Source: Aminivibrio pyruvatiphilus | GTDB taxonomy: Bacteria > Synergistota > Synergistia > Synergistales > Aminobacteriaceae | Length of the DNA stretch: 64,000 nt | Direction of reading: 5' to 3' | NCBI RefSeq assembly: GCF_004366815.1 | Contig: NZ_SORI01000012.1 | Location: forward strand, 1 to 64,000 | Shown here: positions 15,322 to 53,463 of the stretch, piece by piece | How the letters are laid out: each line of letters starts with the position of its first letter | How positions within the stretch are numbered: position 1 is the stretch's first letter | Notes under the pieces: generated by a model | Seen by the model: only the letters and a program-made list of their open reading frames with translations | Told to the model about the DNA's origin: nothing | Database searches by the model: none | Translations under genes and position numbers: made by a program

Positions 15322-15322
15322 A

Positions 15323-16123: not shown

Positions 16124-16141
16124 TTAAAGGAGGAATGAACA

Positions 16142-37016: not shown

Positions 37017-37601
37017 TTACCGGATGAGGGTGCTGATGCGCTTGTAGAGCTGGACCGTTGCAAGGGAGACCACTGTCCCCTTCAGGAGGTTGAAGGGCAC
37101 CACGGCGTACAAAACCAGGGTCCCCAGGTCGTGCACCGCGGGGATGGCCGCCGAGGACATGGCGATGATCTTTTCCAGCGGAATAAAGTTCGAATAGAAG
37201 GGAAGCAGAAAGAAATAGTTTGCCAGGGCCGCAGTGACGGTCATGGAGAGGGTGCCCGCCGCCAGCCCGGCAAGGGCTCCTTTCCGGCTCCTGTTCCGCC
37301 GGTAGATCATGCCCGCCGGAACCACCAGGGCGCTCCCCATGAGGAAATTCGCCAGTTCGCCCACTCCGGCGGTGGACGTGGTCAGCGAATGGATCAGGTT
37401 CTTGATCAGCTCGGTGAAGACGCCCGCGGCCGGTCCCCAGGCGAAGGCGGCCACCAGGGCCGGAAGGTCCGACAGGTCGAGTTTGAGAAAACGGGGGAAC
37501 AGGGGAACTGCCATGTCGATGTACATGAGCACTGCCGCCACGGCGGACAGAAGGGCGGTCCAGACCATGCGGCGGGTTGAGTTGACCGTAGTCGCTTCCA
37601 T
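37017..37601 (-). CDS. ribU: ECF transporter substrate-binding component for riboflavin
   Basis: 194 residues from ATG 37601, with AGGAGG upstream. Five to six membrane helices are visible. The opening TRRMVWTALLSAVAAVLMYIDMAVPLFPRFLKLDLSDLPAL matches the S-component group whose KLDLSD loop is typical of RibU. The FMN riboswitch directly upstream fixes the substrate class as riboflavin. It needs a shared EcfAAT module, which is not in this window. Confidence 0.92.
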   Translation of the reverse strand: MEATTVNSTRRMVWTALLSAVAAVLMYIDMAVPLFPRFLKLDLSDLPALVAAFAWGPAAGVFTELIKNLIHSLTTSTAGVGELANFLMGSALVVPAGMIYRRNRSRKGALAGLAAGTLSMTVTAALANYFFLLPFYSNFIPLEKIIAMSSAAIPAVHDLGTLVLYAVVPFNLLKGTVVSLATVQLYKRISTLIR

Positions 37602-37619
37602 GAAGAATTCGCCTCCTGA

Positions 37620-37654
37620 AAAAGAAAAGCCCCGGACGCAAAGGCATCCGGGGC
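37620..37654 (-). terminator. Riboswitch expression-platform terminator
   Basis: GCCCCGGATGC and GCGTCCGGGGC (minus strand) enclose CTTT and are followed by TTTTCTTTTT. It lies between the FMN aptamer and ribU, so FMN binding would stop transcription. Confidence 0.9.
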
Positions 37655-37673
37655 AAAAATGCGGATCTCGCCA

Positions 37674-37823
37674 TCTTCTTCCATCCTGACTTGGCGGACG
37701 ACTCGCTCCGTCCGCTTCACAGTCGGCTCCGGAATCGCACCGGATCAGCCTTTCGGCTCGCGGGCTGCGGACCTGGAGGCCCTTCACCGCCGGTGGGGAA
37801 TTCCACCCCGCCCCGAAGATTTC
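37674..37823 (-). promoter_or_regulatory. FMN riboswitch (RFN element)
   Basis: The minus strand carries the RFN core in order: GGGGCGGGGTGGAATTCCCC, ACCGGCGGT, GCCCGCGAGC, GATCCGGTGCGATTCCGGAG, CCGAC and GGATGGAAGAAGA. It controls ribU. Confidence 0.95.
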
Positions 37824-37876
37824 GGGGATATGATACTCCATTTCCGCCGTCAGTGCCAGAGAGGGAAATGTTTTTG

Positions 37877-38325
37877 TCGTCATCCCGAATGAGCGCAGTA
37901 TTTCTGTCATCCTGAGCGGAGCGAAGGATCTCGCTTTTTGGGGTTCAGGGTTGTTCAAACCCGAGATCCTTCGCTCCGCTCAGGATGACAACCAGCTCGG
38001 GATGACAGAGCCCATGGTGCCGGCCTCGGGATGAAAGAGTCCTTCGCTCAGGATGCCAACCCGTTTCTGTCATCCTGAGGGGCGCAGCGACGATCGCATT
38101 TGGTTGTCATCCCGAACGCCCGCAATAGCTTGTCATCCCGAGGAGCGGTTTAGGCGACGAAGGATCTCGCTTTTTTGGGTTCAGGGTTGTTCAAACCCGA
38201 GATCCTTCGCTCCGCTCAGGATGACAACCAGCTCGGGATGACAGAGCTCATGGTGCCGGCCTCGGGATGACAGAGCGACGATCGCGGAGCATCCCCGGAG
38301 GGGAAGGATCTCGCCGTTGTCCTTG
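37877..38325. repeat. Cluster of CATCCTGAG-type palindromic repeats
   Basis: Non-coding. It contains a perfect dyad with 28-base arms (37906-37933 and 37962-37989) built from GTCATCCTGAGC...GAAGGATCTCG. A near-identical copy of about 115 bases lies at 38157-38275. Short degenerate units (GTCATCCCGA, CTCGGGATGACA) fill the rest. No gene is supported. Confidence 0.85.
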
Positions 38326-38354: not shown

Positions 38355-39467
38355 CTACTGCGACTTTCCCCGGCAGAGAATGGGCAGCTCGTCCGCGACC
38401 CGGCCGTCCTCCACGAGGTACATCCGGTCGTAGAGGTTGCAGGTGGGGCAGATGTGGTTGGGGATGATCTCCACCCGGTCTCCCAGGGAGAGCCGCTCGT
38501 TCGCCTCCCGGCCGTAGACCAGGCCGTGCTCGTCGTAGAGCTTGCCGATCCTCAGACCGTCAAAGCCCTTCAGCAGGCCGTGGCCGGGAGTGGCGCAGAT
38601 CCCCCCTTCCCTGGTGAAGGCCGTCAGCGCCTTGACCCCCGCGTCCAGGACCACCCGGTCGGCCGTGGGCTTGCTCATCACCGTGGCCAGCACCGTGGCG
38701 GCGCAGGTGCCGTAGCTCCCCACCGCCGCACCCTGGGCGGCGTCCATGAGGACGTAGGTTCCGGGACGGATCTCCGTCACGCCGGGGAGAATGTCCCCGC
38801 CGAGCAGAATGGACGGCGTGGCGCCGATGCTCACCGTGCCCACGGGGATGCCCGCCGAGCGGATCATCTCCGCGGCCCCGAGGGTGTCCTCCTGGGCCTT
38901 CCTGTAAAAGGCGGCGCACTGTTCCCGGTCTTTTGCGCCGTAGGTGTGCCCCTCATGGGAAAAAATGCCCTTCAGCCGCACGTTCGGCGCGGCGGCGATG
39001 AATTTCGCAAGCTCCACCAGCTCCGGTCCGGGAAGCATGCCCGACCGCACCTCTCCCGTTTCCACCTCGATCAGGACGTCTGCAGGTTCCGGGGCTCCCT
39101 CGAAGAACCGGGAGATGGCCGTCACCTGCTCCCGGTTGTCCACCCCCACGCTGAGCCGCGTTTTCGCGGCCAGGTTCCGGAGCCGGGCGAACTTCAGGTC
39201 GCCGAAAATCTCGTTGGCGATGAAGATGTCGTCCATGCCGTTTTCGGCCATGACCTCCGCCTCGCCGATCTTGGCCACGGTGATGCCCTTGGCTCCGGCC
39301 TTCACCTGCATGGCCGCGATCGCCGGAGTCCTGTGGGTCTTCGTGTGGGGCCTCAGGGCGACGGCCGCCCTGTCTGCCAAATCCTGCATTCCCGTTATGT
39401 TGCGGAGCAGAATGGTTCTGTCCACGAGGAGGGAAGGGGTATCAAGGCTGCTGTACAGGTCTTTCAT
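38355..39467 (-). CDS. PLP-dependent D-threonine aldolase / D-3-hydroxyaspartate dehydratase-like enzyme
   Basis: 370 residues from ATG 39467, overlapping the RidA stop (ATGA). It has a fold-type III alanine-racemase-like barrel: DTPSLLVDRTILLRNI, then the PLP lysine Lys43 in RPHTKTHR. The C-terminal His338 and Cys340 in PNHICPTC are the divalent-metal site of D-serine dehydratase and D-threo-hydroxyaspartate dehydratase. Either aldol cleavage or beta-elimination of a D-hydroxyamino acid is possible. The RidA partner favours elimination, because it would hydrolyse the enamine product. Confidence 0.85.
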   Translation of the reverse strand: MKDLYSSLDTPSLLVDRTILLRNITGMQDLADRAAVALRPHTKTHRTPAIAAMQVKAGAKGITVAKIGEAEVMAENGMDDIFIANEIFGDLKFARLRNLAAKTRLSVGVDNREQVTAISRFFEGAPEPADVLIEVETGEVRSGMLPGPELVELAKFIAAAPNVRLKGIFSHEGHTYGAKDREQCAAFYRKAQEDTLGAAEMIRSAGIPVGTVSIGATPSILLGGDILPGVTEIRPGTYVLMDAAQGAAVGSYGTCAATVLATVMSKPTADRVVLDAGVKALTAFTREGGICATPGHGLLKGFDGLRIGKLYDEHGLVYGREANERLSLGDRVEIIPNHICPTCNLYDRMYLVEDGRVADELPILCRGKSQ

Positions 39468-39868
39468 GGCTGTTGTTCCTCCGTTCTTCCGGCATCCGTC
39501 GCCGCGACGGCGTCGATTTCCACCAGGAAGCCGTAATGCAGGTCCCGCGTGGGCACCACCGTCCGGGCCGGACGATGGTCGCCGAAGAATCCGGCGTACA
39601 CTGCGTTTATCCTGCCCCAGAGCGAAATGTCCGACACGTAGACGGTGACCCGCAGCACCCTGTCCCTGCCGCTCCCGGCGGCTTTCAGCACGGCCTCCAG
39701 ATTCAGGAGGGTCCGTTCTGTCTGTTCCTCCACCGTACCGAGGCATTTCTCGCCCGTTTCCGGAACGATGGGAAGCTGCCCCGCCACGTACACAACGCCC
39801 TGATGCACTACCGCCTGGGAATAATGGCCCCCCGGCCGGGGAGCATCCTCCGTCGAAATGAACCGCAT
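39464..39868 (-). CDS. RidA-family enamine/imine deaminase
   Basis: 134 residues from ATG 39868. The trimeric RidA fold is shown by APRPGGHYSQAVVHQGVVYVAGQLPI, TLLNLEAVLKAAG and VTVYVSD. The usual C-terminal PARTVV is present, with the substrate arginine. It lies in an operon between a GntR gene (one-base TAATG junction) and the PLP enzyme, so it likely removes reactive enamines made by that enzyme. Confidence 0.92.
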   Translation of the reverse strand: MRFISTEDAPRPGGHYSQAVVHQGVVYVAGQLPIVPETGEKCLGTVEEQTERTLLNLEAVLKAAGSGRDRVLRVTVYVSDISLWGRINAVYAGFFGDHRPARTVVPTRDLHYGFLVEIDAVAATDAGRTEEQQP

Positions 39869-40674
39869 TATTTTCGGGCACCTCCGTTCAGAATCGCACA
39901 CTTTGTCTGTTCAGCCCCGGAATCTTCCGGGGCCTGTCCGCATCCCTCGTCCCGCCGTGAATCAAGCTTCCTGATCTCCTCGTCGATGTAGTCGGCCAGG
40001 ATGCTGTTGTGGAAGGCCATGGCCTTTACCGCCGCTTTCACATTGCCGCTCTCCATGGTCCGAATGATCTCCATGTGGTGGTTGTACCGCTCTCTTGCCG
40101 GGAAGGGTGTGGTGGACAGTCCCCGGAACGTTTTTTTCCACAGGACCTCCACTCTCTTGTGCATCTCCCGGATCACGGGATTGTCGAGCAGGGAGGTGAT
40201 GGCCAGTTCGAAATTCATGTTGGGCAGCTCGAACCGGGATCCTTCGCCGGCAAGGCCATTTTCAGCCGCCTCTAGCTGCTCGTCCTCCATCCGCCGCAGT
40301 GAAAGGATCTGCGATTCCGTCAGATGGGGGACCACCTCGGCAACGACCCGCTCCTCGATCATCCTCCGGGCCTGGATGAGCTGCCGCAGAAAGACGAAAT
40401 GGTCCCTCTGGTCTGAGCTGTATTCCGCCACCGGCACGGCGGCGGTGGAAAGAAGAAATGCTCCGCCTCCGTGCCGGATTTCCAGCAGACCGTTGCTCTC
40501 CAGGGTCTTCAGGGCCTCCCGCACGGAGCTCCGGCTCACCTTCATGGCGGCCGCGAGGGTCCGTTCCGAGGGAATCCGGTCCCCCACCTTCAGATTGTTG
40601 TCCCTGATGTACCTGGTTATGTTTTCGATGATCGCGTCCCTGACGATGACCTTCTTGATCTGCTGGAGCGCCAC
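39868..40674 (-). CDS. GntR-family regulator (FadR subgroup)
   Basis: 268 residues from GTG 40674, with AAGGGGG about ten bases upstream; an in-frame ATG at 40695 is the alternative. The winged helix includes VGDRIPSERTLAAAMKVSRSSVREALKTLESNGLL. The all-helical FCD domain follows. The divergent LeuC-like operon and a TGGT-AGG-ACCA site between suggest it controls both directions. Confidence 0.9.
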   Translation of the reverse strand: MALQQIKKVIVRDAIIENITRYIRDNNLKVGDRIPSERTLAAAMKVSRSSVREALKTLESNGLLEIRHGGGAFLLSTAAVPVAEYSSDQRDHFVFLRQLIQARRMIEERVVAEVVPHLTESQILSLRRMEDEQLEAAENGLAGEGSRFELPNMNFELAITSLLDNPVIREMHKRVEVLWKKTFRGLSTTPFPARERYNHHMEIIRTMESGNVKAAVKAMAFHNSILADYIDEEIRKLDSRRDEGCGQAPEDSGAEQTKCAILNGGARK

Positions 40675-40733
40675 GTTTTTCCATCCCCCTTGCATCCGCC
40701 TGAGAATCTGCTATACTTTTCAAAAGCTTTAAC

Positions 40734-40744
40734 TGGTAGGACCA
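40734..40744. promoter_or_regulatory. FadR-type GntR operator
   Basis: TGGT-AGG-ACCA matches the TGGT-N3-ACCA half-site arrangement of FadR-subgroup regulators such as PdhR. It lies between the divergent regulator and LeuC-like genes. Confidence 0.6.
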
Positions 40745-40920
40745 CTTGCCACTTTCCAGGCCCATTATAGCACCTTGCCAAATCTTACATCATGAATCAC
40801 CCGGTCAAAAGCGAAGCAAACATTTCCAGTGGACCGGAGAAACGGCGGAAACAGCCCTTCCACCCATGCGGGGAGAGGCTTCAGGAACCGGATTTTTTCG
40901 ACATGAGGAGAGATAACGGC

Positions 40921-42165
40921 ATGCATGCTCTGGAAAAAACCCTCGCCCGGGCTTCCGGGAAGACGCAGGTATCGGCAGGGGAAATCGTCCTGGCGGACGT
41001 GGATCTGGCAGAGGTCAACGACCTCTATCTTCAGGTGATCAAATCCTTCCATGAACTGGGAGGAGAAAAAGTCCGCCACCCCGGAAAGACATCCTTCGTC
41101 TTCGATCATTATTCACCCGCACCCACCATCAAAGCAGCGGACAACCACAAAAAAATGAGGGAATTCTGCGCCGGGCAGGGCATTCCCCACCTCTTCGACA
41201 TCGGCGAGGGGGTCTGCCACCAGGTACTGACCGAGAGCGGCATGGTCGGTCCCGGTACCATCGTCGTGGAAACCGATTCCCACACCACCACCATGGGGGC
41301 CCTCGGGGCCTTCGGGACCGGGGTGGGGGCCACCGACATGGCCACCATCCTGATCACCGGGAAGCTCTGGTTCAAGGTCCCCCGGGTGATGAACATCGTC
41401 TTCGAGGGCACTCCTCCCAAAGGCGTCATGGCCAAGGACATGATCCTCCACGCCATCGGCGACCTCAGGCAGGATGCCGCAATCTACAAGGCGGTGGAGT
41501 TCAGCGGCGGCACTGTCCGGGAGATGGCCCAGGAGGAGCGCTTCGTCCTGTGCAACATGGCCGTGGAGATGGGGGCCAAGGCGGCCTACATCGCCCCGGA
41601 CGGCATCACCCTCGACTATCTCTCCTGCTATGGCTGGAAGGGCGGAGAGATTCCCGCGACCGACCCGGGGTACGAGTATGACTCCGTGGTCCGGTACGAC
41701 GTATCCTCCCTGTCCCCCCGGGTGGCCCTGCCGGGGAGCGTGGACGCCGTCTCCGCCATTCCGGAGGAGAGGATCCCCGTGGACCAGGTATTTCTTGGCA
41801 CCTGCACCGGCGGACGGCTCAACGACATCCGGGTCGCGGCGGAGATCCTGGAAGGGAAACGGGTCGCCCCGGGAACCCGGTTCGTGGTCATTCCCGCCTC
41901 GAGACGGATCTTCCAGGACGCCCTTCTGGGCGGGTACATCGAAACGCTGGTGAACGCCGGCGCCGTGCTGTCCACCCCCGGCTGCGGTCCCTGCCTCGGC
42001 GCCCACGAGGGCATCCTGGCACCGGGAGAAACCTGCGTCACCACGTCGAGCCGGAATTTCCCCGGAAGAATGGGAAGCACCGAGGCGGACATCTATATCG
42101 CGTCGCCCGCCACCGCTGCCGCCACCGCGCTCATGGGCCGCCTCTGCGGCGCGGACTCGCTCTAA
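40921..42165 (+). CDS. Aconitase-superfamily large subunit (LeuC / homoaconitase / dimethylmaleate-hydratase-like)
   Basis: 414 residues from ATG 40921, AGGAGA upstream; the frame is open further left without family sequence. The [4Fe-4S] ligands are Cys295 (LGTCTGGR), Cys355 and Cys358 (PGCGPCLG). DSHTTTMGALGAFGTGVGATDMA is the substrate/cluster loop. The size fits the short, split form used for isopropylmalate, homocitrate, 2,3-dimethylmaleate and similar acids. Because the operon carries a transporter, a PdxA-like and an LeuB-like dehydrogenase but no LeuA, catabolism of an imported acid is more likely than leucine synthesis. Confidence 0.88.
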   Translation: MHALEKTLARASGKTQVSAGEIVLADVDLAEVNDLYLQVIKSFHELGGEKVRHPGKTSFVFDHYSPAPTIKAADNHKKMREFCAGQGIPHLFDIGEGVCHQVLTESGMVGPGTIVVETDSHTTTMGALGAFGTGVGATDMATILITGKLWFKVPRVMNIVFEGTPPKGVMAKDMILHAIGDLRQDAAIYKAVEFSGGTVREMAQEERFVLCNMAVEMGAKAAYIAPDGITLDYLSCYGWKGGEIPATDPGYEYDSVVRYDVSSLSPRVALPGSVDAVSAIPEERIPVDQVFLGTCTGGRLNDIRVAAEILEGKRVAPGTRFVVIPASRRIFQDALLGGYIETLVNAGAVLSTPGCGPCLGAHEGILAPGETCVTTSSRNFPGRMGSTEADIYIASPATAAATALMGRLCGADSL

Positions 42166-42180
42166 GGGAGGAGCTGGGGA

Positions 42181-42684
42181 ATGGACATCATCAGGGGAAG
42201 TATTTTCACCTTCGGCAACAACATCGATACAGACCAGATCTATCCCGGACGATACCTCGAGCTCACCGAGCACGACGAAATCGCCGCCCACGTCATGGAA
42301 GGGGCGGACCCGTCCTTTGCGTCGACAATGAAACGGGGCGACATCATCGTTGCCGGAACCAACTTCGGCTGCGGCTCCAGCCGGGAGCACGCCGTCATCA
42401 CCCTGAAAAACTCGGGGGTGGGGGCCGTGGCGGCCAGGTCCTTCGCCAGGATTTTTTTCCGGAATGCAGTGAACCTCGGGCTGGTCGTAGTGGAAATTCC
42501 GGACCTGGGAGACCTCGGTCTTCGGGACGGCGACGAAGGGGAGCTCGATGTTCTCAGGGGCGTGTTCACCACACCCGCCGGTGAGAAGTCCTTCGCTCCA
42601 TTGCCTCCCCACGTGCTCTCCATCATCGAGGCGGGGGGCATCTTCCCCCTGTTCCGGGAGAAGGGCGCGGGCGTCTTCGGTTAG
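42181..42684 (+). CDS. Aconitase-superfamily small subunit (LeuD-like)
   Basis: 167 residues. Swivel-domain motifs NIDTDQIYPGRYL and GTNFGCGSSREHAVITLKNSGVGAVAARSFARIFFRNAVNLGL are intact. Starts 15 bases after the large subunit with GGGAGGAGCTGGGGA. The loop YPGRYLELTEHDEIAAH replaces the YLRT/YLVST substrate-specificity loop of true LeuD, which hints at a different side chain on the substrate. Confidence 0.88.
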   Translation: MDIIRGSIFTFGNNIDTDQIYPGRYLELTEHDEIAAHVMEGADPSFASTMKRGDIIVAGTNFGCGSSREHAVITLKNSGVGAVAARSFARIFFRNAVNLGLVVVEIPDLGDLGLRDGDEGELDVLRGVFTTPAGEKSFAPLPPHVLSIIEAGGIFPLFREKGAGVFG

Positions 42685-42722
42685 GCCGGGGCGGATCTGG
42701 ATTGGGAGAGGGGAGTCTTTTC

Positions 42723-43739
42723 ATGGAAACGAACCGCAGAAAGCCCGTACTGGCCGTTCCCCTGGGGGATGCGGCGGGAATAGGTCCGGAAATTGTGGCA
42801 AAAGTCGCCGCGTGCGGCTTTCTTGAACGGCATGCCCGTCCCGTGATCGTGGGAGATGAGAGAGTACTCCGGCTGGGAATGAACATCGCCGGGGCGGAGT
42901 TTCCCTTCCGCAGGGCGGGATCACTGGAGGAAGCGGCAGCAGGAGAGGGGCTCACCCTGTGGGACACCGGCACCCTGGACGCCGCAACCCTCGAGCTGGG
43001 CAAAGTGTCGCCTGTCAACGGAAAAGAAGAGGGCGACAACCTGGCGGCCTGCATCGAAGGGTGCAAACGGGGACTTCTGGACGGCATCTGCTTCGCCCCC
43101 CTGAACAAGGCGGCCCTCAAGCTCGGAGGGTACAACTTCCCCAGCGAGCACGAGATGTTCGCCCACCTGTACGGCATCACGGAAGGGTTCGGCGAGATGA
43201 ACGTCCTGGAGGGGCTCTGGAATATCCGGGTCACCAGTCATATTCCCCTGAAGGACGTGAGCCGGAACATCACCGTGGAGTCGGTGCTTGACTCCATCCG
43301 CCTGGGGTACAAAACGTTGCGGCGGGCAGGCTGCGAGATTCCCCGGATGGCCATGGCCGCCCTGAACCCCCACGGAGGAGACAGCGGCACCTGCGGCCGG
43401 GAGGAGATCGACATCCTTCTGCCCGCCATCGGGACGGCCCTGGACGAAGGGATCGCCGTGGAAGGCCCCTTCCCTTCCGATACTCTGTTCATTCGGGCCT
43501 TTGAAGGAAAATACGACGGCGTGGTCACCATGTACCACGACCAGGGACAGATCGCCATCAAGCTCAGGGGGTTCCATCACTGCGTTACCGTTTCGGCCGG
43601 GCTGCCCCACCCCATCACCACGCCCGCCCACGGAACGGCCTACGACATCGCGGGAAAGGGGATATGCACCACGTCCGCCTTTGAGGACGCCTATGCCCTC
43701 GCCGCCAGGATGGCCCTGGGAGACCGGGCGGTCTCATGA
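42723..43739 (+). CDS. PdxA-family dehydrogenase with unusual substrate residues
   Basis: 338 residues from ATG 42723, with GGGAGAGGGGAGT upstream. PdxA-type markers are PLGDAAGIGPEIVAK, APLNKAAL, LNPHGG, GPFPSDTLF, MYHDQGQ and HGTAYDIAGKG. In PdxA and PdxA2 the phosphate/substrate region reads GHTE and RTSxDHGTA; here it is SEHE and ITTPAHGTA. The protein is therefore probably neither a vitamin B6 enzyme nor a standard 4-phosphothreonate dehydrogenase, but an NAD-dependent oxidative decarboxylase for the acid handled by this operon. Confidence 0.85.
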   Translation: METNRRKPVLAVPLGDAAGIGPEIVAKVAACGFLERHARPVIVGDERVLRLGMNIAGAEFPFRRAGSLEEAAAGEGLTLWDTGTLDAATLELGKVSPVNGKEEGDNLAACIEGCKRGLLDGICFAPLNKAALKLGGYNFPSEHEMFAHLYGITEGFGEMNVLEGLWNIRVTSHIPLKDVSRNITVESVLDSIRLGYKTLRRAGCEIPRMAMAALNPHGGDSGTCGREEIDILLPAIGTALDEGIAVEGPFPSDTLFIRAFEGKYDGVVTMYHDQGQIAIKLRGFHHCVTVSAGLPHPITTPAHGTAYDIAGKGICTTSAFEDAYALAARMALGDRAVS

Positions 43740-43862
43740 AGTCCCGGCCCGGCGGCCGGGAAATACGGAAGAAGAGGGGAGGGATGGAAGAAGTTTTTAT
43801 CGCGGAACAGGCATGAAGAGAAGAAGGGATGAACTACAAACGACAAGGAGGGTCACACGATA

Positions 43863-44816
43863 ATGAAAAAAAGACATCTTCTGGTACTGCTGGTTCTGGC
43901 TGTGTCTCTGGCCTTCACGGGCGCGCTTTCCGCCGCCGACAATTATCCGGCGAAGGCGGTCGTGCTCGTGTACCATTCCCAGGCGGGATCGGGCGGCGAC
44001 ATCTTCCTGAGGAACATGGGCAAGGCCATCGAGAAACAGATCGGAAAGCCCATCATCGTGGAGAACAGGACGGGAGGCGGCGGTTCCAACGCCTGGATGT
44101 ACTCCAAAAACGCGAAGCCCGACGGATACACCCTGCTCGGAATTTCGTCCTCCATCATCGCCGGCCCGCTCCAGACCAAGATGGCGGTCTCCTACGCCGA
44201 CTTCAAGCCTGTCGCCCAGGTCTTCTTCGATCCCACGGTCATTTTCGTCCCCGCAAAGAGCCCGTTCAAAACCTTTGATGACGTCATCAAGGACGCCAAG
44301 GCGAATCCCGGAAAGCAGAACTGGGGCGCCGGAAATCCCGGCAGCGCCGAGACCATGTGCATAGAGAAGGTCGCCCAGCTTGCCGACATGCAGATTACCG
44401 TGGTTCCCTTCGAAGGCGGAGCCGACGTCATGGTGGAGATCATCGCCGGCAGGATCGACGCGGCCATCGGCGAGTACGCCGAAATCGCCAGCCAGGTTGA
44501 GGCGGGCAACATCCGCATCATCGCCTGCCTGAATTCCGAACGGATGGAAGAGGCTCCCGACGTGCCCACCCTCAAGGAGAGCGGCGTGGACTTCGTGTTC
44601 GAAAAAATCCGCGGCATCGTCGCCCCGAAGGACGTTCCCGATTCGGTGGTCAAGGTTTGGACGGACGCCCTCGCCAAGATTTTCGACGATCCCGAGTTCA
44701 AGACATACTACAAGGAGAACATGCTTGTCCCCAGATTCCTTCCCGCCGAGAAAATGCAGAAGGTCATGGACGACCAGCACGCCTTCTTCAAGGAGATGAG
44801 CAAGGGACTCTACTAG
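43863..44816 (+). CDS. TTT transporter solute-binding protein (TctC/Bug family)
   Basis: 317 residues with a signal peptide (MKKRHLLVLLVLAVSLAFTG, cleavage near SAADN). Family motifs are YPAKAVVLVYHSQAGSGGD, VENRTGGGGSNAW and PDGYTLLG; DVPTLKESGVDF precedes the C-terminal lobe. It captures a carboxylate in the periplasm for the TctAB permease behind it. AAGGAGGGTCACACGATA precedes the ATG. Confidence 0.93.
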   Translation: MKKRHLLVLLVLAVSLAFTGALSAADNYPAKAVVLVYHSQAGSGGDIFLRNMGKAIEKQIGKPIIVENRTGGGGSNAWMYSKNAKPDGYTLLGISSSIIAGPLQTKMAVSYADFKPVAQVFFDPTVIFVPAKSPFKTFDDVIKDAKANPGKQNWGAGNPGSAETMCIEKVAQLADMQITVVPFEGGADVMVEIIAGRIDAAIGEYAEIASQVEAGNIRIIACLNSERMEEAPDVPTLKESGVDFVFEKIRGIVAPKDVPDSVVKVWTDALAKIFDDPEFKTYYKENMLVPRFLPAEKMQKVMDDQHAFFKEMSKGLY

Positions 44817-44933
44817 AGCCTGCTTTCCCGTACAGGTTGTGTGATTTCTCGTAACCAATCTGCCTCGAGGCGCCCCCCGGACCGGGTTCTCCCGCTCCGG
44901 CGGGGCGCCGGAGGCAACACAGGAAGGGAAATT

Positions 44934-45413
44934 ATGACCATTACAGTCAAAAGCAAAGTCGTGCTCAATATCCTCTGGATTCTCATCGCCGCCGGTTTCT
45001 GGTGGACCTCCATACCCTACAGCGAGGCGAGGACCTTCGATCCCATCGGGCCCCACATCTTTCCCCAGCTCATGTCCGGGGTGATCATCCTCTGCTCCCT
45101 GGGCAACCTGGCGGTGCTGTACAGGCACCCAAAGCCGGGCGTTGCGGAGGCGGCGCCCGAGACTTTCGAACCTTCGAACGCCCTGAAGATGTTTCTCGTT
45201 CTCGTGGTCAGCGGGCTGTACATCTGGCTTATGCCCCTGGCGGGCTACCTCATCGCTACCGTTTTCCTGCTGTTTCTGCTCATCGCGGTGCAGGGAGAGG
45301 TGGGACTGAAAGTCAACATCCTCGTCAGCTGCGGGTTCGCCCTGGTACTGTACCTGCTTTTTTCCAAGGTGCTTCATATTCTTCTGCCCCACGGTTTTCT
45401 CGAGTTCATCTAG
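44934..45413 (+). CDS. TTT transporter small membrane subunit (TctB family)
   Basis: 159 residues from ATG 44934, AGGAAGGG upstream. Four helices, with the usual FDPIGPHIFPQLMSGVIILCSL at the end of the first. It partners the TctA protein 71 bases downstream. Confidence 0.88.
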   Translation: MTITVKSKVVLNILWILIAAGFWWTSIPYSEARTFDPIGPHIFPQLMSGVIILCSLGNLAVLYRHPKPGVAEAAPETFEPSNALKMFLVLVVSGLYIWLMPLAGYLIATVFLLFLLIAVQGEVGLKVNILVSCGFALVLYLLFSKVLHILLPHGFLEFI

Positions 45414-45484
45414 GGCCCGCTCCCTGAGAGAATCTGCGCCCGCGGGTAGTTTTTAAGCTTGTCATACTGGAGGCTGAGCGTCTC

Positions 45485-46978
45485 ATGGAATTTCTGCAGA
45501 ATATAGCTCTCGGTTCGAGCGTGGTTTTCACTTTCAAGGGCATCTCGGCCATCATAGCCGGTGTGGTTGCCGGGACCATCGGCGGAGCCATTCCCGGCAT
45601 CAACGCCACCATGACCATGGCCATCCTGCTGCCCTTCACATGGGGGATGGACCCCACCGTGGCCATCCTCATGTACGTGGGCATTTACTGCGGGGGCCAG
45701 TACGGCGGCTCCATTCCGTCGGTCCTGATCGGCACCCCCGGGACGCCGTCCTCGGCCGCCACGGTGATGGACGGCTATCCCCTCCACCTTCAGGGGAAGA
45801 CCGGCCTCGCCCTGGGCATGTCCCTCTACGCCAGCGTGTTCGGGGGGATCGTCTCGAGCGTCGCCCTGATGATTTTCGCCATTCCCCTGGCGAAGGTGGC
45901 CCTTGCCTTCGGCCCCCCCGAGTATTTTGCCCTGGCGCTCCTCGGGCTAACCCTGGTAGCCTCTCTGTCCACTGACGTGTTCAAGGGGCTCATCTCGGCG
46001 GCCCTCGGCCTTCTTCTGGCCACCATCGGCCTCGACCCCTTCGCCGGCATCGTCCGGTTCGGCTTCGGCAGCGAAAACCTGATCGAGGGATTCGAGATCA
46101 TCCCCTTCTACATGGGAATCTTTGCCCTGAGCCAGGTGCTCTACATCATCTTCAAAAAGATCAAGCGGGCGGTGGTGGAGTACCGGATCACCTCGAAATA
46201 CCCGTCCACCCTGGATTTCATCCGGTGTCTTCCCTCCATGCTCATAGGATCGGTCATCGGGATGTTCGTGGGCGCCATGCCGGGGGCGGGAGCGTCCATC
46301 GCCTGCTGGCTGGGCTACAACGAGGCGAAGCGGTGGTCCCGGCATCCCGAGCAGTTCGGCAAGGGGGCCCTTGAAGGGGTAGCCGCGCCGGAGGCCACGA
46401 ACAACGCCGTCACTGGCGGCGCCATGGTGCCCCTCCTCTCCCTGGGCATACCGGGCTCAAGCTCCACGGCGATCATGCTGGGCGTGCTCATCATCCACGG
46501 CCTCCGGCCGGGCCCCATGCTCTTCGTCACCAACCCGGAAATACCCTACTCGATCTTCGTCTCCCTGTTCGTCTCGAACATCTTCATGATCTTCGTCGCC
46601 CTGCTGCTGATCAAGCTCCTCATCAAGGTGGTCAACATCCCCGAGACCATAATGAACGCCTGCATCCTGGCCATAATCTTCGTCGGCGCCTACTCGGTGA
46701 ACAACAGCATGTTCGACATCTTCACGGTCCTCCTCTTCGGCATCCTCGGTCTGATCATGAAGATCTACGACTATCCCATCACGGCCACGGCCCTCGGCTT
46801 CGTGCTGGGGTACCTGGTGGAGACGAACTTCCGGCGGTCCCTCACCCTCTCCAAAGGAGACTGGTCCGTCTTCATGACAAACCCCATCTCCATGGTCATC
46901 ATCACCCTTGCGGTCCTGAGCGTGGTCTACGCGGTCTACTGCAACCACTTCAGGAAAAAACGGGGGGCGGCGGAATAG
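45485..46978 (+). CDS. TTT transporter large permease (TctA family)
   Basis: 497 residues, about 11-12 helices. Both family hairpins are present: GTIGGAIPGINATMTMAILLPFTWGMDP and VGAMPGAGASIACWLGYNEAKRWS. The substrate-site motif GVAAPEATNNAVTGGAMVPLLSLGIPGSSSTAIMLG is also present. The permease sits inside the metabolic operon, which links uptake and catabolism. Confidence 0.94.
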   Translation: MEFLQNIALGSSVVFTFKGISAIIAGVVAGTIGGAIPGINATMTMAILLPFTWGMDPTVAILMYVGIYCGGQYGGSIPSVLIGTPGTPSSAATVMDGYPLHLQGKTGLALGMSLYASVFGGIVSSVALMIFAIPLAKVALAFGPPEYFALALLGLTLVASLSTDVFKGLISAALGLLLATIGLDPFAGIVRFGFGSENLIEGFEIIPFYMGIFALSQVLYIIFKKIKRAVVEYRITSKYPSTLDFIRCLPSMLIGSVIGMFVGAMPGAGASIACWLGYNEAKRWSRHPEQFGKGALEGVAAPEATNNAVTGGAMVPLLSLGIPGSSSTAIMLGVLIIHGLRPGPMLFVTNPEIPYSIFVSLFVSNIFMIFVALLLIKLLIKVVNIPETIMNACILAIIFVGAYSVNNSMFDIFTVLLFGILGLIMKIYDYPITATALGFVLGYLVETNFRRSLTLSKGDWSVFMTNPISMVIITLAVLSVVYAVYCNHFRKKRGAAE

Positions 46979-47054
46979 AAAAGCCCGTTCCGGGGAGCGT
47001 CTCCCCGGAAGAAAACACGAGGTACTCAAATAAAACGCGAGGGAGAGTCGACAC

Positions 47055-48137
47055 ATGGCCGTCTACAAGCTTGGAATACTGAAAGGCGACGACATCGGGC
47101 TTGAAGTGGTGCCCGAGGCGGTGAAGGTATTGAACGCGGCCGTCGCCGGGTTCGGCGGCGTGACGCTGGACTGGTGCGAGCTGCCCGTGGGGTACCCCTC
47201 CTACCTGAAGAGCGGGGAAACCCTTCCCGCCTCCACCCTGGAGGCCCTGTACGGCCTGGACGGGTGGATCCTGGGGCCCATCGGTCACATGGCCTACCCG
47301 AAGGACGATCCGAAGGCCATCAACCCTCACCCCATCCTTCGGCGGAATTTCGACCTGGCGAGCAACATCCGCCCGGCCAGGTCCCACCCTTCCCTCCCGT
47401 GCCTCCGGCAGGACGTGGACCTGGTCATCATCCGGGAGAACAACGAGGGCTTCCAGCCCGACAGGAATATGTACAAAGGCATGGGGGAGTGCATGCCCAC
47501 CCCGGACATGGCTCTGTCCCTCCGGGTGATCACCAGGCGGAATTCTTCCATGGTGGCCAGGACGGCCTTCGAGCTGGCCCGGCAGCGCAACGGAAAGAAG
47601 AAAGTCACGGCTATCCACAAGAACACGGTCTTCAAGCTGGGCTGCGGACTCTTCATCGATACCTGCACGGAAGTGAGCAAAGAATACCCCGACGTGGAGT
47701 TCGGCACGGCGGTGGTGGATACCTTCGCCATGCACCTCGTCATGAGGCCGGCGAATTTTGACGTGGTCGTCACCACCAACATGTTCGGCGACATTCTCTC
47801 CGACGAAGCGGCTGGGCTGGTGGGAGGGCTCGGCATGGCCCCCGGCCTCTGCGTAGGGCCCCGGTACGCCATGGCACAGGCCACCCACGGATCGGCCCCG
47901 GACATTGCCGGGAAGAACATCGCCAATCCCTACGCCATGATCATGTCCGCCCAGATGCTGCTCTCCTGGCTCGGGAACGGGAAAGGGGACGGGGAGGCCG
48001 TGCAGGCGGCGGGGAATATTGAAGCGGCCCTCGGAAAGGTTCTGTCCGATAAAAAGTGCGTCACCCCGGACCTCGGCGGGACGGCGGGTACCGACGCCAT
48101 GGGGGACGCCGTCTGCCGGGCCCTGGCGGCCCTGTAG
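47055..48137 (+). CDS. Isopropylmalate/isocitrate dehydrogenase-family oxidative decarboxylase
   Basis: 360 residues. The beta-decarboxylating dehydrogenase fold is clear: GILKGDDIGLEVVPEAVKVL, NFDLASNIRPAR with the substrate arginines, the catalytic Lys in AIHKNTVFK, VVTTNMFGDILSDEAAGLVGGLG and the NAD-site HGSAPDIAGKNIANPYAM. The specificity loop reads RENNEGFQPDRNMY instead of RENTEGLYSG. It should act on a 3-substituted malate but not necessarily isopropylmalate. GAGGGAGAGTCGACAC precedes the ATG; a strong terminator follows. Confidence 0.88.
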   Translation: MAVYKLGILKGDDIGLEVVPEAVKVLNAAVAGFGGVTLDWCELPVGYPSYLKSGETLPASTLEALYGLDGWILGPIGHMAYPKDDPKAINPHPILRRNFDLASNIRPARSHPSLPCLRQDVDLVIIRENNEGFQPDRNMYKGMGECMPTPDMALSLRVITRRNSSMVARTAFELARQRNGKKKVTAIHKNTVFKLGCGLFIDTCTEVSKEYPDVEFGTAVVDTFAMHLVMRPANFDVVVTTNMFGDILSDEAAGLVGGLGMAPGLCVGPRYAMAQATHGSAPDIAGKNIANPYAMIMSAQMLLSWLGNGKGDGEAVQAAGNIEAALGKVLSDKKCVTPDLGGTAGTDAMGDAVCRALAAL

Positions 48138-48153: not shown

Positions 48154-48194
48154 AAACGAGCCCCTTCCCGGAACATCCGGGAAGGGGCTCGTTT
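48154..48194. terminator. Bidirectional terminator between the two TTT operons
   Basis: A perfect 19-base stem (48154-48172 with 48176-48194), loop ACA, with AAA and TTT at the ends. Confidence 0.92.
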
Positions 48195-48202: not shown

Positions 48203-48850
48203 TCAGGCGCCGGCGGCGTCCCGCTTCTTCTTCTCCGAGACGATGTTCAGGATCTCGGCGCAGCGGATCTGGTTGAAGATGCCGCAGTAGCAGAAGTTGG
48301 AAAGCTTCCTCGCACCTTCCTCCGCGGTGAGTTTCCCCTTGTCCACCTGCTTCTGGACGTCCTCCACGAACTTGGGCGGGATCATGTGGTGGCCGCACAT
48401 GGTGGTGATGGACAGGGTGTCGTCGTCGGGGAGGCGGCTCTTGTTGCCCCAGACGCCGAGGGAATAGTTGATGGAGTGGGGGGTGACTTCCGCTTCCCTG
48501 CAGGCGGGCAGCACCTCGGACAGAACTCCGGTGATGACCACCGACATGCCGAGATCCTTGGCCTTGATGTCCTTCAGGAAGCCGATCACCTGCTCCTTGC
48601 TGGTGAAGACGCCCCTGATGCGGGACTTGTCGCTGATGTTCTTCCTGATCTCTTCACTGGTGTACTGGGTCAGAGGTCCGGTTTTCACGTCGCCCCAGTT
48701 CTCGGAATGCCATGCCTCGGCGGTGGCGATGAACTCGAGGGCCTTGTCCCTGATGTTCTTGTCGTTCACGCCCTTGGTCTGGTACATGAACCAGTTGAAG
48801 TCCTTCTTCTGGGACTCGATATCTCCCGATCTGTGCAGTGAGTGGGTCAT
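48203..48850 (-). CDS. Unrecognised Cys/His-rich cytoplasmic protein
   Basis: 215 residues, no signal peptide or membrane segment. I do not recognise the family. The N-terminal half is helical and charged. The middle has GMSVVITGVLSEVLPACREA and SINYSLGVWGNKSRLPDDD. The C-terminal part carries MCGHHMIPPKFVEDV and then NFCYCGIFNQIRCAEIL, giving four closely spaced cysteines and two adjacent histidines that could hold a metal or Fe-S cluster. CAGGAGGAAGAACGAA precedes the ATG. It lies 30 bases after the dicluster ferredoxin protein and downstream of a TTT transporter, so an enzyme working with that electron carrier on the transported acid is a fair guess. Confidence 0.7.
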   Translation of the reverse strand: MTHSLHRSGDIESQKKDFNWFMYQTKGVNDKNIRDKALEFIATAEAWHSENWGDVKTGPLTQYTSEEIRKNISDKSRIRGVFTSKEQVIGFLKDIKAKDLGMSVVITGVLSEVLPACREAEVTPHSINYSLGVWGNKSRLPDDDTLSITTMCGHHMIPPKFVEDVQKQVDKGKLTAEEGARKLSNFCYCGIFNQIRCAEILNIVSEKKKRDAAGA

Positions 48851-48880
48851 TTCGTTCTTCCTCCTGTTCTCTTCTCTGCC

Positions 48881-49615
48881 CTACAGGGTGCTGAGGGGTT
48901 TGCCGAGGCCGACGTTCACCTTGCCGCGGTGGGGCTGGGGGATACCGAGGGCGTCGAGCTCGCTGAGCACCGGGTTCTCGCCGTTTTCATCCACCCGGAG
49001 GATGAGCCCCACGGAGAAGACGGTGTCGATTTCCTTTTCCACTCTCTGGAGGGCGCGGAAGACGTCGGGCATTTTGTCCAGGGGGCAGCTCCCCTCGATA
49101 ATGACGGAAAGAAGATGGTAGTCGTGGCATGCGTCGTCAAGCTTGCCGGTCTTCATGTCCGTCATGAGGGCGGAAAGGGGCGTGGTCTCGGGCGGTTCGA
49201 AGACGAGGCCGGCTTCCGCCATGGCCATGGCCACTTTCTCGGCGTCCCGGAGGAACACGCCCAGGCCGGGACGGCCCATGTCGATGGAGAAGCCCGCGAA
49301 GCCTTTCTTCACCCGGCCGCTCACATCGTTGGTCTTCACTTCTTCGGTTCCCCGGCCCGTGACGCCGGTGACGCCGTGGTTCTCCACGGGGTCGCTCATG
49401 ACGTGCTGGAACTGCTTGAAAAAGCCGTCAAGCTCCACGGTCTCGATGGCGCCCACGGGGCAGACCTTCTGGCGCACGCAGACGTAGCACTCGGTGCACC
49501 GGGCCTGGTCCACGCAGCACTTCTTCTCTTCGGGGAGATAGTGGATGGCATCCACGGTGCAGTACTTCATGCACGTTTTGCAGCCGACACATTTTTCCTT
49601 GTTGATGACTGTCAT
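48881..49615 (-). CDS. Dicluster ferredoxin fused to an unrecognised domain
   Basis: 244 residues. The first 60 hold two cysteine sets: C-x2-C-x2-C-x3-C in VGCKTCMKYCTVDAI, then ARCTECYVCVRQKVCPVGAIE, whose x4 gap before the last cysteine departs from the usual x3. The remaining 180 residues contain GFSIDMGRPGLGVFLRDAEKV, DACHDYHLLSVIIEG and a closing IPQPHRGKVNVGLGKPL; I cannot assign this domain. It could be the electron-input subunit of a reductase or dehydratase activator together with the Cys-rich protein downstream. Confidence 0.75.
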   Translation of the reverse strand: MTVINKEKCVGCKTCMKYCTVDAIHYLPEEKKCCVDQARCTECYVCVRQKVCPVGAIETVELDGFFKQFQHVMSDPVENHGVTGVTGRGTEEVKTNDVSGRVKKGFAGFSIDMGRPGLGVFLRDAEKVAMAMAEAGLVFEPPETTPLSALMTDMKTGKLDDACHDYHLLSVIIEGSCPLDKMPDVFRALQRVEKEIDTVFSVGLILRVDENGENPVLSELDALGIPQPHRGKVNVGLGKPLSTL

Positions 49616-49672
49616 TGACCTACACCCTTTCTCATTTTCTGAACTGCTTTCAGCCGGTCCGCGGAAAACTGC

Positions 49673-51184
49673 CTATGCGGAAGGGGGAACCTCTCTCGTT
49701 TTTCTGTGATCCCTGATCATGCGGATGAAGGGCATGATCAGCGTGGCGAAACCCAGCGCGAGGAACACGAGGGATATGGGGCGGGTGAAAAAGGTGGTCC
49801 ATTCGCCGGCGGAGATGATGAGCCCCCTCCGGAAGTTGCTCTCCGCCATGGGCCCGAGAACCAGGGCAAGCACCAGCGGAGCTATGGGGAATTCGAACTT
49901 TCTCATGAAGTAGCCCACCACGCCGAAGGAGAACATGAGGAACACGTCGGAGAGACTGTTGTTCTCGGCGAAGGAGCCGATGGTGGCCAGGATGAGGATC
50001 ATGGGCACCAGGACCCGGTTGGGGATCTTCGTGACCTGGGAGAAAAGGCGCGCTCCCAGCATGCCGAGGACGAAGAAGGCGATGTTGGCCAGGACCATGC
50101 CGGCAAAAAGGCCGTAGACAAGGTCGGGATTCTCCCTGAAGAGCAGCGGCCCCGGGCGGAGGCCCTGGATCATGAAGGCCCCTACAAGTACCGCCGTAGT
50201 CTCCGACCCCGGAATTCCGAGAGAGAGCAGGGGGACCATGGCTCCGCCTGTGGCGGCGTTGTTGGCCGCTTCAGGGGCGGCAATGCCTTCAAGGCAGCCG
50301 GTGCCGAACTTCTCCGGCGTCTTTGACCACCGGCGGGCCTCATTGTAGCTGATGAAGGAGGACATGGTGGCCCCGGCGCCGGGGAGGATGCCGACGAGGG
50401 TGCCGATGATGGAGGAACGGACGAGGGTGCCCGTAACGGAGACCAGGTCCTTCAGGCTGATGGTGAGGCCGGAAATGGCCTGCTTCACGCCGCCGAGCTC
50501 CTTGATCTCCTTCTCCACGGTGATGAAGATCTGGGAGACGGCGAAGAGACCGATGAGCACGGGGATGAAGGAGATGCCGTTCAGAAGTTCCACGATGTCG
50601 AAAGTGAACCGGGGAACTCCCGTGACGATGTCAAGCCCCACCGTGCCGAGGAGCAGGCCGATAACCGCGGAGATGAGTCCCTTCACCATGTTTTCGGCGG
50701 AAAGGCTCGAAATGATGCTCAGGCCGAAGAAGCAGAGGGCGAAATACTCCGCCGGGCCGAACATGAGGGCCATCCGGGCCAGCGGGGGGGAGAGAAAGAT
50801 AAGGACGATCACGCTGAAGATTCCCCCGATGAAGGACGCCGTTGCGGCCATGCTCAGGGCCCGTCCGGGCTCTCCGTTCTGGGCCATCTCGTAGCCGTCG
50901 AAAACAGTGCAGGCCGCGGCTGTTGTTCCGGGGGTCCGGAGCAGGATGGCCGTGATGGATCCTCCGTAGATGGCGCCGCAGTAGATGCTGAGCAGCATAA
51001 CGATGGCGGGCAGGGCGCTCATTCCGTAGGTGAGGGGAAGAAGCAGGGCGATGCCCATGGAGGCGTTCAGGCCGGGAAGGGCGCCGATGGCGATTCCCAG
51101 TGCGCTTCCCACAAAAACACTCAGGAGGTTTTGAAGAGTGATGACATCTTTGAAGCCTTCAAGTATCAGAAGAAGCGATTCCAT
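49673..51184 (-). CDS. TTT transporter large permease (TctA family), second system
   Basis: 503 residues with the same signatures as the protein at 45485 (GALPGLNASMGIALLLPLTYGM, VGILPGAGATMSSFISYNEARRWS, GIAAPEAANNAATGGAMVPLLSLGIPGSETTAVLVG). GGGAGGACGAGAAAT precedes the ATG. It belongs to the GntR-TctC-TctB-TctA-ferredoxin-Cys-rich operon. Confidence 0.94.
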   Translation of the reverse strand: MESLLLILEGFKDVITLQNLLSVFVGSALGIAIGALPGLNASMGIALLLPLTYGMSALPAIVMLLSIYCGAIYGGSITAILLRTPGTTAAACTVFDGYEMAQNGEPGRALSMAATASFIGGIFSVIVLIFLSPPLARMALMFGPAEYFALCFFGLSIISSLSAENMVKGLISAVIGLLLGTVGLDIVTGVPRFTFDIVELLNGISFIPVLIGLFAVSQIFITVEKEIKELGGVKQAISGLTISLKDLVSVTGTLVRSSIIGTLVGILPGAGATMSSFISYNEARRWSKTPEKFGTGCLEGIAAPEAANNAATGGAMVPLLSLGIPGSETTAVLVGAFMIQGLRPGPLLFRENPDLVYGLFAGMVLANIAFFVLGMLGARLFSQVTKIPNRVLVPMILILATIGSFAENNSLSDVFLMFSFGVVGYFMRKFEFPIAPLVLALVLGPMAESNFRRGLIISAGEWTTFFTRPISLVFLALGFATLIMPFIRMIRDHRKTREVPPSA

Positions 51185-51199
51185 ATTTCTCGTCCTCCC

Positions 51200-51658
51200 T
51201 TAGCCCAGGAATCCCTTGGGTACAGGGACTTTGAGCAGATTGGCAAACACGAAGTACACGGCGAAGACGACGATCAGGACGGGAACCATGTCCATGATCC
51301 GGAACCTCCTGGTGGTGATGACCGTGATGATGCAGGCGAAAAGGGGCGCCAGGACCAGGAAACCCGCTTCGGGAAGGAAATACCAGAAGGCGTAGCATAG
51401 CCCTGCCGTCACGGTCACAGCGCCGATGCCGGCAAAAGATGCCGTGGTCGCCTTCGTGAGCTTTTTCATATCGAGAAGGGCCATCAGCGCCGAGAGGAAC
51501 ATGAGAGCCCCGGCGAAGAGCTGAGGGAACGCGTGGGCTCCCACCTGGCCTTCAATTTCAATGTCGGGTACATATTCCGCGGCTTCCCTGAATACCAGGT
51601 AGCCGAAAACGAATAAACCCACTCCGAGTACGGTGTTCATGTATCGAAAATTTTTCAT
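51200..51658 (-). CDS. TTT transporter small membrane subunit (TctB family), second system
   Basis: 152 residues, four helices, with EIEGQVGAHAFPQLFAGALMFLSAL in the place of the TctB signature. Fifteen bases upstream of the TctA gene. Confidence 0.87.
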   Translation of the reverse strand: MKNFRYMNTVLGVGLFVFGYLVFREAAEYVPDIEIEGQVGAHAFPQLFAGALMFLSALMALLDMKKLTKATTASFAGIGAVTVTAGLCYAFWYFLPEAGFLVLAPLFACIITVITTRRFRIMDMVPVLIVVFAVYFVFANLLKVPVPKGFLG

Positions 51659-51745
51659 GCTCTGCCCCCACAGTCTAAAGTGCCGGTATGCAAAAGGGGG
51701 TGCACGGCAAAATCAGGACGCCGCACACCCCGAACAGGCGCTGCG

Positions 51746-52717: not shown

Positions 52718-52779
52718 AATAATTCCTCCTTCAAATTCGTTTCCCTGTCCTCCTGGTGCGGTGAACCCTGAACATGCTG

Positions 52780-53463
52780 CTATGTGCTCCTTTCCACCTC
52801 CCCGTCAGCGGAATCAAGCGTTGTCAGTATGGAGTTCAAAGCGTTGCCGAGGTGAATCCGGATGCATTCCGCGGCAACGGCTTCATCCCTTTTTTCGAGG
52901 GCTGCGATGAGGTTCCTGTGTTCTTCGATGACCCTGGGGATCCGGTTGGGCGTATTCACGGACCGGATGCGGAAGAGCCGGGCGCTGCTCTGCACCTGCT
53001 CGATGAAGCCCGTAAGAATGGAGCTGTCGGCGGCGGAGAGGATGATCCTGTGGAACTCCACGTTCGCCTCGATGATGCATTCCATGTCCGTATGATGAGC
53101 GCAGGCCTCCATGCGTTTCACGTTGTTCCGGAGCTTTTCGAGAATTCCGGCGGTCAGGTTCGGAAGAGCCCACTGGACCGCGAGTGTCTCAAGATGGAGG
53201 CGGAGGGTGTAGAGCTGGACGATGTCTTTTTTCTCCAGCCTGGCCACCACGAACCCCTTGTTCGGGAGCTTTTTGACGAGACGCTTGGCCACGAGGCTGT
53301 TCAGGGCGTCATGGACGGGTGTTCTGCTGATGCCCATGCTCTCCGCCAGGGTTCTTTCCACAAGGCGGGTTCCGGGGGGGATTTTTCCCTCCAGGATGGC
53401 GGAACGGAGTTCTTCGAAGGCTCTTTCGCTCAGACTCTTCGTTGCGGGGAGCTTTGAAATCAT
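52780..53463 (-). CDS. GntR-family regulator (FadR/VanR subgroup)
   Basis: 227 residues from ATG 53463, GGAGGAAAAACC upstream. The winged helix contains LVERTLAESMGISRTPVHDALNSLVAKRLV, followed by an FCD domain with the HRNLIAAL metal-histidine helix. First gene of the second TTT operon, behind a strong promoter. Confidence 0.9.
   Translation of the reverse strand: MISKLPATKSLSERAFEELRSAILEGKIPPGTRLVERTLAESMGISRTPVHDALNSLVAKRLVKKLPNKGFVVARLEKKDIVQLYTLRLHLETLAVQWALPNLTAGILEKLRNNVKRMEACAHHTDMECIIEANVEFHRIILSAADSSILTGFIEQVQSSARLFRIRSVNTPNRIPRVIEEHRNLIAALEKRDEAVAAECIRIHLGNALNSILTTLDSADGEVERST

Follow-up and report, generated by a model that had tools for sequence, protein, structure and literature searches.

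Genes annotated as LeuB, LeuCD or PdxA are often presumed to make leucine or vitamin B6. In a window of 64,000 nucleotides from the anaerobe Aminivibrio pyruvatiphilus (contig NZ_SORI01000012.1, positions 1 to 64,000, the whole stretch that was analysed), relatives of all three surround the genes of a tripartite tricarboxylate transporter (TTT), and the question is what this operon, at 40921-48137, does. Its products are a two-subunit hydratase (HydL and HydS, together HydLS), a PdxA-family dehydrogenase (PdxA2), the transporter proteins TctC, TctB and TctA, and a LeuB-like dehydrogenase (LeuB2). Judged from sequence, there is a solid case that the operon represents a new pathway variant, built on two dehydrogenase subfamilies that lack residues which textbook members need. 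It probably serves the uptake and breakdown of a small free malate-type 2-hydroxy-dicarboxylate and its unsaturated partner acid, and malate/maleate itself, by analogy with related loci, is a tentative candidate for the substrate. The residue and context markers described below separate the two catabolic subfamilies from leucine and vitamin B6 roles, name a testable substrate class and tie an unnamed Fe-S protein pair (Fd49 and NTR48) to the locus. They would improve the annotation of TTT operons, which are abundant and mostly without a known ligand.

Gene content and conservation of the operon

Domains were assigned with Pfam, and family membership was judged against the subfamily and equivalog cut-offs of NCBIfam. 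The Pfam assignments confirmed the original prediction of seven genes on the + strand, with their families and coordinates:

40921-42165, + strand: HydL, LeuC/HacA-type [4Fe-4S] hydro-lyase large subunit (PF00330)
42181-42684, + strand: HydS, LeuD/DmdB-type small subunit with recognition loop YLEL (PF00694)
42702-43739, + strand: PdxA2, PdxA-family dehydrogenase of a kinase-free [SD]EH subfamily (PF04166)
43863-44816, + strand: TctC, TTT periplasmic receptor (PF03401)
44841-45413, + strand: TctB, small TTT membrane subunit (PF07331)
45485-46978, + strand: TctA, large TTT membrane subunit (PF01970, E 7e-148)
47055-48137, + strand: LeuB2, NAD-type beta-decarboxylating dehydrogenase with the catalytic Tyr replaced by Gln134 (PF00180, 1e-81)
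48154-48194, no strand: intrinsic terminator with a 19-bp stem and 12 G-C pairs, between convergent operons

HydL likely starts at 40921, with an AGGAGA box upstream; the likely starts of PdxA2 and TctB are the ATG at 42723 and a position near 44934. TctC, TctB and TctA all scored over the Pfam cut-offs and make up a complete TTT. The strong stem-loop after the last gene bears out the single terminator proposed earlier, and it looks usable on both strands, the next gene being convergent. The same gene order, with 83-97% identity, was found in two species of the same genus (G025 and G028; the copy in G028 is divided between two contigs), and the seven-gene arrangement is not chance.

Relation to leucine biosynthesis

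The LeuC, LeuD and LeuB family names, from which automatic annotation would give leucine biosynthesis, suit an ordinary copy of the leucine (or homocitrate-type lysine) pathway that stands beside a transporter by chance. We consider this highly improbable. The operon has no leuA, as had been noted; the gene sits on contig C23 (717 bits against an NCBIfam cut-off of 532) in a complete leuA-leuC-leuD-leuB set. Because this canonical set is present elsewhere in the genome, the operon is a paralogous one; leucine biosynthesis was rejected and the earlier view of the operon as catabolic is supported. The C23 set is also nearer to the equivalog cut-offs (569 for LEU2, 232 for leud). The operon proteins fell below every equivalog cut-off for LeuC, LeuD, LeuB, HacA, PdxA, DenD and tartrate dehydrogenase: HydL missed the isomerases (LEU2, 435 vs 610.65; leuC, 222 vs 560) and homoaconitase (HacA_Meth, 415 vs 550), HydS missed leud (165 vs 246) and LeuB2 missed leuB (206 vs 353). 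Further points against a leucine copy are the HydS loop, which is YLEL and not YLVY or YLRT, the loss of the catalytic Tyr from LeuB2, and the position of the transporter genes in the middle of the operon.

The hydratase and its malate racemase context

The aconitase domain pair and the subfamily scores place HydLS in the LeuC/HacA [4Fe-4S] hydro-lyase superfamily: HydL passed the cut-offs of TIGR01343 (511 vs 386), TIGR02086 and NF001614, and HydS passed that of TIGR02087 only. The recognition region of the small subunit sets specificity (PMC7308503). In HydS this loop reads YLEL, compared with YLVY in the isopropylmalate/citramalate isomerase of M. jannaschii (3vba) and YLRT in homoaconitase (2pkp), and YLE or YLD was found also in HydS orthologs linked to LarA.

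The nearest orthologs outside the genus (65-80% identity for HydL and 57-75% for HydS) adjoin LarA homologs in three other genera, and these homologs scored 579, 543 and 574 bits against the LarAH6 cut-off of 500. LarAH6, or Mar2, has been shown biochemically to be a malate racemase with high efficiency in vitro (PMC7583248). In a maximum-likelihood tree, HydL of the operon and all six LarA-linked sequences fell into one 12-member clade (support 100/99). The adjacent clade is in part associated with citrate lyase, and the LeuCD of Bacillota LeuB2 cassettes branch separately. Because members of the HydLS clade adjoin the malate racemase, the substrate is likelier to be malate/maleate than dimethylmalate or aconitate, and the most economical reading of HydLS from this ortholog context would be conversion of maleate to (R)-malate, the activity of maleate hydratase (EC 4.2.1.31). 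The original prediction had named methyl- or dimethyl-malates, citraconate-type acids and aconitate as candidates. These found no support, as the nearest HydL orthologs point to malate/maleate via LarAH6, and use of aconitate would suit those HydL relatives that are associated with citrate lyase and make up a supported group of their own.

In two loci of other Synergistota (L077 and L078), HydLS, TctC/A/B and LarA share one operon, with the order GntR, HydL, HydS, TctC, TctA, TctB, LarAH6 and malic enzyme in L077. With our operon these two have in common orthologous HydLS (67%), the TTT genes and a regulator of the GntR type, but the malate racemase and (in L077) malic enzyme stand in place of LeuB2 and PdxA2, and TctC comes from another clade. 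The genome's own LarAH6 gene lies on contig C3, unlinked to the operon.

LeuB2 and its genomic neighbours

The Iso_dh domain with its conserved Arg, Lys and Asp assigns LeuB2 to the beta-decarboxylating dehydrogenase superfamily, and R96, R106, R127, K189, D222, D246 and D250 are invariant in its alignment. The protein also carries the motifs RENNEGFQPDRN and NPHPILR. A scan of the genome collection for LeuB2 relatives, of which the best 80 loci were kept (54-93% identity), placed the clade in at least five phyla, including Synergistota, Bacillota, Desulfobacterales, Nitrospirota and Proteobacteria. At the position after RENNEG(F/M), 62 of 83 clade members have Gln and 19 have Pro, with two unreadable; the Gln count is biased by the search pattern ENNEGFQ, while a second pattern, GDDIG, was independent of Gln and recovered the Pro group. 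Of the 18 LeuB-family proteins outside the clade that these loci also encode, 16 keep Tyr (two unreadable).

Regarding the pocket, the substrate side chain is read by L90/L91 in isopropylmalate dehydrogenase, by an Arg in homoisocitrate dehydrogenase and by Ser/Asn in isocitrate dehydrogenase. The corresponding region of LeuB2, NPHPILR, differs from all of these, and because LeuB2 lacks their pocket residues we favour a malate-type acid. With D-malate/tartrate dehydrogenase (EC 1.1.1.83/1.1.1.93) it has in common the Iso_dh fold and the Arg/Lys/Asp catalytic and metal residues, but it differs in score (218 vs 470 bits for TTC, LeuB2 being under all equivalog cut-offs), in Gln134 for Tyr and in the NPHPILR motif. 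With its catalytic Tyr lost, LeuB2 raises the mechanistic question of a beta-decarboxylating dehydrogenase working without the proton-donating Tyr.

Neighbours were counted within 9 kb in 87 scanned loci, counts which ignore relatedness and include many comparison loci that are fragments of metagenome-assembled genomes. TctC was present in 49 loci, TctA in 37, two MmgE/PrpD groups in 36 and 22, PdxA in 20, LeuC in 13, LeuD in 12, PEPM/ICL lyases in 6 and 4, and Fd49 and NTR48 in 10 each. The operon does combine two beta-decarboxylating dehydrogenase families, as claimed before, but the statement that this is uncommon needs qualifying, given PdxA genes in 20 of the 87 loci; the PdxA/LeuB pairing recurs across phyla. 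In one further genome (G173), orthologs of TctCBA-LeuB2 (74-77% for TctC, TctA and LeuB2) are followed by a LarA homolog, whose place after LeuB2 fits a substrate with a 2-hydroxyl.

The neighbours bear on a rival reading, the catabolism of alkyl-substituted malates (methylmalate, citramalate/citraconate or 2,3-dimethylmalate), in which HydLS would act on a citraconate-type acid and LeuB2 would decarboxylate a 3-substituted malate. In Bacillota, LeuB2 relatives have LeuCD and methylisocitrate-lyase-like PEPM/ICL proteins as neighbours, and in Proteobacteria they have MmgE/PrpD dehydratases; such partners are typical of methylated C5-C7 acids, and the pocket motif of LeuB2 is unlike known malate enzymes. 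However, the operon has no lyase, it is malate racemase, not methylated-acid genes, that accompanies the HydLS clade, and citramalate, by established chemistry, lacks the C2 hydrogen that LarA would have to move. On balance we hold alkylmalates to be rather unlikely.

The 2,3-dimethylmalate pathway of Eubacterium barkeri uses a PEPM/ICL-type lyase. No PEPM/ICL gene was found in the operon among the Pfam assignments, which leaves it without the neighbour expected of DmdAB and speaks against the earlier suggestion of dimethylmalate. The DmdAB and Dml proteins of this nicotinate fermentation resemble our system in that an anaerobe uses a LeuCD-type hydro-lyase on a malate derivative, and HydS belongs to the LeuD/DmdB family, but the lyase-bearing LeuCD locus lies elsewhere, on contig C15. 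There, at about 4100-16400 (G000, locus L044), we observed RraA-like and TTT genes, a PEPM/ICL-type lyase (prpB, 255 vs 354), a LeuCD-like pair and citrate-lyase-like genes, a better candidate for dimethylmalate- or methylisocitrate-type chemistry.

PdxA2 and the missing kinase

PdxA2 retains the three metal-ligand His motifs and scored below all PdxA/DenD equivalog cut-offs (248 vs 290 bits for PdxA). In E. coli PdxA, the motifs GHTE and RTSVDHGTA make the substrate (phosphate) contacts. These are replaced by SEHE and ITTPAHGTA in PdxA2, and all 19 PdxA proteins of the LeuB2 loci, PdxA2 of the operon included, have [SD]EH. A 30-member PdxA2 subfamily, from which GHTE and RTSVDHGTA are absent throughout, splits from conventional PdxA with support of 100/100. 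With the phosphate-site motifs replaced and the scores under cut-off, a role in vitamin B6 synthesis was rejected. Moreover, the operon has no DUF1537 kinase gene, and the only two DUF1537-type kinases found in the genome each adjoin a conventional GHTE PdxA paralog (C1:102587 and C1:182347). PdxA2 may thus act on an unphosphorylated substrate, and it is because its subfamily lacks both motifs and the operon lacks a kinase that we favour a free malate-type acid. At C1:179967-183015, a LarA lactate-racemase-type gene (620 vs 460 bits), a conventional PdxA and a DUF1537 kinase are consecutive.

TTT systems for terephthalate/phthalate with TphB (4aty) likewise pair a TTT receptor with a PdxA-family dehydrogenase whose substrate is unphosphorylated; TphB is a remote match to PdxA2 (97 bits), and no ring-cleavage or dioxygenase genes were seen at the operon. 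Acid sugars are broken down by DenD/PdxA2 systems with a DUF1537 kinase (Zhang et al. 2016, as cited in PMC9997740). The PdxA fold, the metal-ligand His motifs and organic-acid catabolism are common to these systems and PdxA2 of the operon, which differs in its replaced phosphate-site motifs, the missing kinase and a score of 195 vs 583 bits for D-threonate-4-P dehydrogenase. A kinase-dependent acid-sugar route was rejected, the operon being without a kinase.

Tartrate or another di- or trihydroxy acid of the acid-sugar type could still be the substrate, with PdxA2 and LeuB2 acting on hydroxylated C4-C6 acids and HydLS dehydrating one of them. Neighbours of the PdxA2 subfamily (L-rhamnonate dehydratase, altronate dehydratase, IlvD/Edd and TTT) agree with this, as does a locus with TctCBA, tartrate dehydrogenase and PdxA in succession (L231). 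We nevertheless judge it quite unlikely: the operon contains no sugar-acid dehydratase, aldolase or kinase, and the context of the HydL clade is malate. Eight plasmid members of the PdxA2 subfamily neighbour TTT or tripartite ATP-independent periplasmic (TRAP) transporters or sugar-acid dehydratases.

Transporter phylogeny

In a quick tree with Shimodaira-Hasegawa-like approximate likelihood ratio (SH-aLRT) support, TctC of the operon fell into a 15-member clade (SH-aLRT 96). This clade also holds the TctC of five LeuB2 cassettes from Bacillota, of seven Synergistota cassettes with the order GntR-Fd49-NTR48-OYE-HydL-HydS-TTT, and of the TTT-LeuB2-LarA-HpcH locus of G173, and the acids that its members import are probably related. 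TctC of the LarA-HydLS operon was placed outside it.

Proposed pathway

From gene order, conservation, family membership, residue replacements and genomic associations, all directly observed, we infer substrates, directions and products as follows. TctCBA would import the acid, and HydLS would hydrate the unsaturated acid or dehydrate its 2-hydroxy counterpart, the likeliest single pair being maleate to (R)-malate. In an NAD+-dependent oxidation with loss of CO2, LeuB2 would turn the hydroxy acid into a 2-oxo acid (pyruvate if the substrate is malate) and yield NADH, and PdxA2 would do likewise for a second stereoisomer or a substituted relative. Expression is probably controlled by GntR. As an interpretation, the originally proposed sequence of TTT uptake, hydration or dehydration and oxidative decarboxylation is supported.

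Several points weigh against malate-type breakdown. D-malate dehydrogenase chemistry is uncertain for LeuB2, with Gln replacing the Tyr of tartrate/D-malate dehydrogenases. In other phyla LeuB2 pairs with MmgE/PrpD, LeuCD of other clades and PEPM/ICL lyases, and given these differing hydratase and lyase partners it may act on a substituted malate. The transporters of the operon and of the LarA-HydLS loci may carry different acids, as their TctC clades differ. Finally, other genes of the PdxA2 subfamily are often found in acid-sugar clusters, a context compatible with tartrate-like or aldonic acids and with malate alike.

The Fd49-NTR48 pair and the second TTT operon

Beyond the terminator lies a second, convergent TTT operon (48203-53496, - strand) with the order GntR2-TctC2-TctB2-TctA2-Fd49-NTR48, in which TctC2 occupies 51746-52717. 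Its last two genes are:

48203-48850, - strand: NTR48, Cys-rich conserved protein
48881-49615, - strand: Fd49, 2x[4Fe-4S] ferredoxin domain (Fer4) with an uncharacterised C-terminal domain

NTR48 had no Pfam or significant NCBIfam match, and Fer4 was the sole family match of Fd49. Eight Cys are invariant in Fd49, and the invariant residues of NTR48 include MCGH and CxCG. NTR48 occurs in 19 of 185 genomes of the phylum, with none found on plasmids, and on every contig that extends far enough Fd49 adjoins it. The pair lies next to LeuB2 in Bacillota (L104, L105, L109, L114, L117 and L150) and is found also in OYE cassettes. Structures were predicted with a local distance difference score (pLDDT) of 89 for NTR48 and 85 for Fd49. 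Despite these good models neither had a PDB match with E < 0.001, Fd49 giving only a weak ferredoxin-domain match, and structure-based naming was dropped. A split 6-hydroxynicotinate reductase was also considered and abandoned, as NCBIfam gave no support and a literature search nothing useful.

The pair may act on the imported acid in a redox or Fe-S-dependent reaction. It is possible, if doubtful, that the LeuB2 clade without Tyr, the PdxA subfamily without a kinase and Fd49-NTR48 together mark an undescribed family of organic-acid pathways in Synergistota, Bacillota and Pseudomonadota, with Fd49-NTR48, present in a subset of mostly anaerobes, as a new Fe-S enzyme for the acid taken up.

A cassette of the order GntR-Fd49-NTR48-OYE-HydL-HydS-TctC-TctB-TctA recurs in Synergistota (L213, L214, L216, L219, L220 and L222; similar in L215, L217 and L218), and we found no description of it. 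Its OYE-like protein resembles one in L114 that matches the Fe-S flavoenzyme BaiCD best among NCBIfam entries, at a score under the cut-off. In the LeuB2 cassette of L104 and L105, the TTT genes stand between two copies of a gene for a 322-330 aa protein (cluster c62); by eye this protein resembles M29 aminopeptidase/NicX-type proteins, and the tested copy had no NCBIfam match.

Divergent upstream genes and regulation

Three genes upstream of HydL are read in the opposite direction:

39868-40695, - strand: divergent GntR/FCD regulator (PF00392 and PF07729)
39464-39901, - strand: RidA-family enamine/imine deaminase (TIGR00004, over cut-off)
38355-39464, - strand: DSD1-like pyridoxal phosphate enzyme of the D-threonine/3-hydroxyaspartate aldolase or dehydratase family (PF01168 and PF14031)

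The divergent position of the regulator, the probable controller of the operon, is conserved in the genus. The intergenic region 40690-40920 contains blocks strongly conserved in three species, e.g. TCTTACATCATGA and GCTATACTTTTCAAAAG, possibly a promoter and a GntR operator; a search for an operator in this divergent region found no inverted repeat. For the DSD1-like protein BhcC was the best NCBIfam match, but at 181 against a cut-off of 690 this identity was rejected. DSD1 relatives are accompanied by a BhcD-like partner in L106 and L150, two LeuB2 cassettes of Bacillota, which is a hint of 3-hydroxyaspartate chemistry. Further upstream, 37017-37958 (- strand) encodes a membrane protein that by eye resembles RibU, the S component of the riboflavin energy-coupling factor (ECF) transporter.

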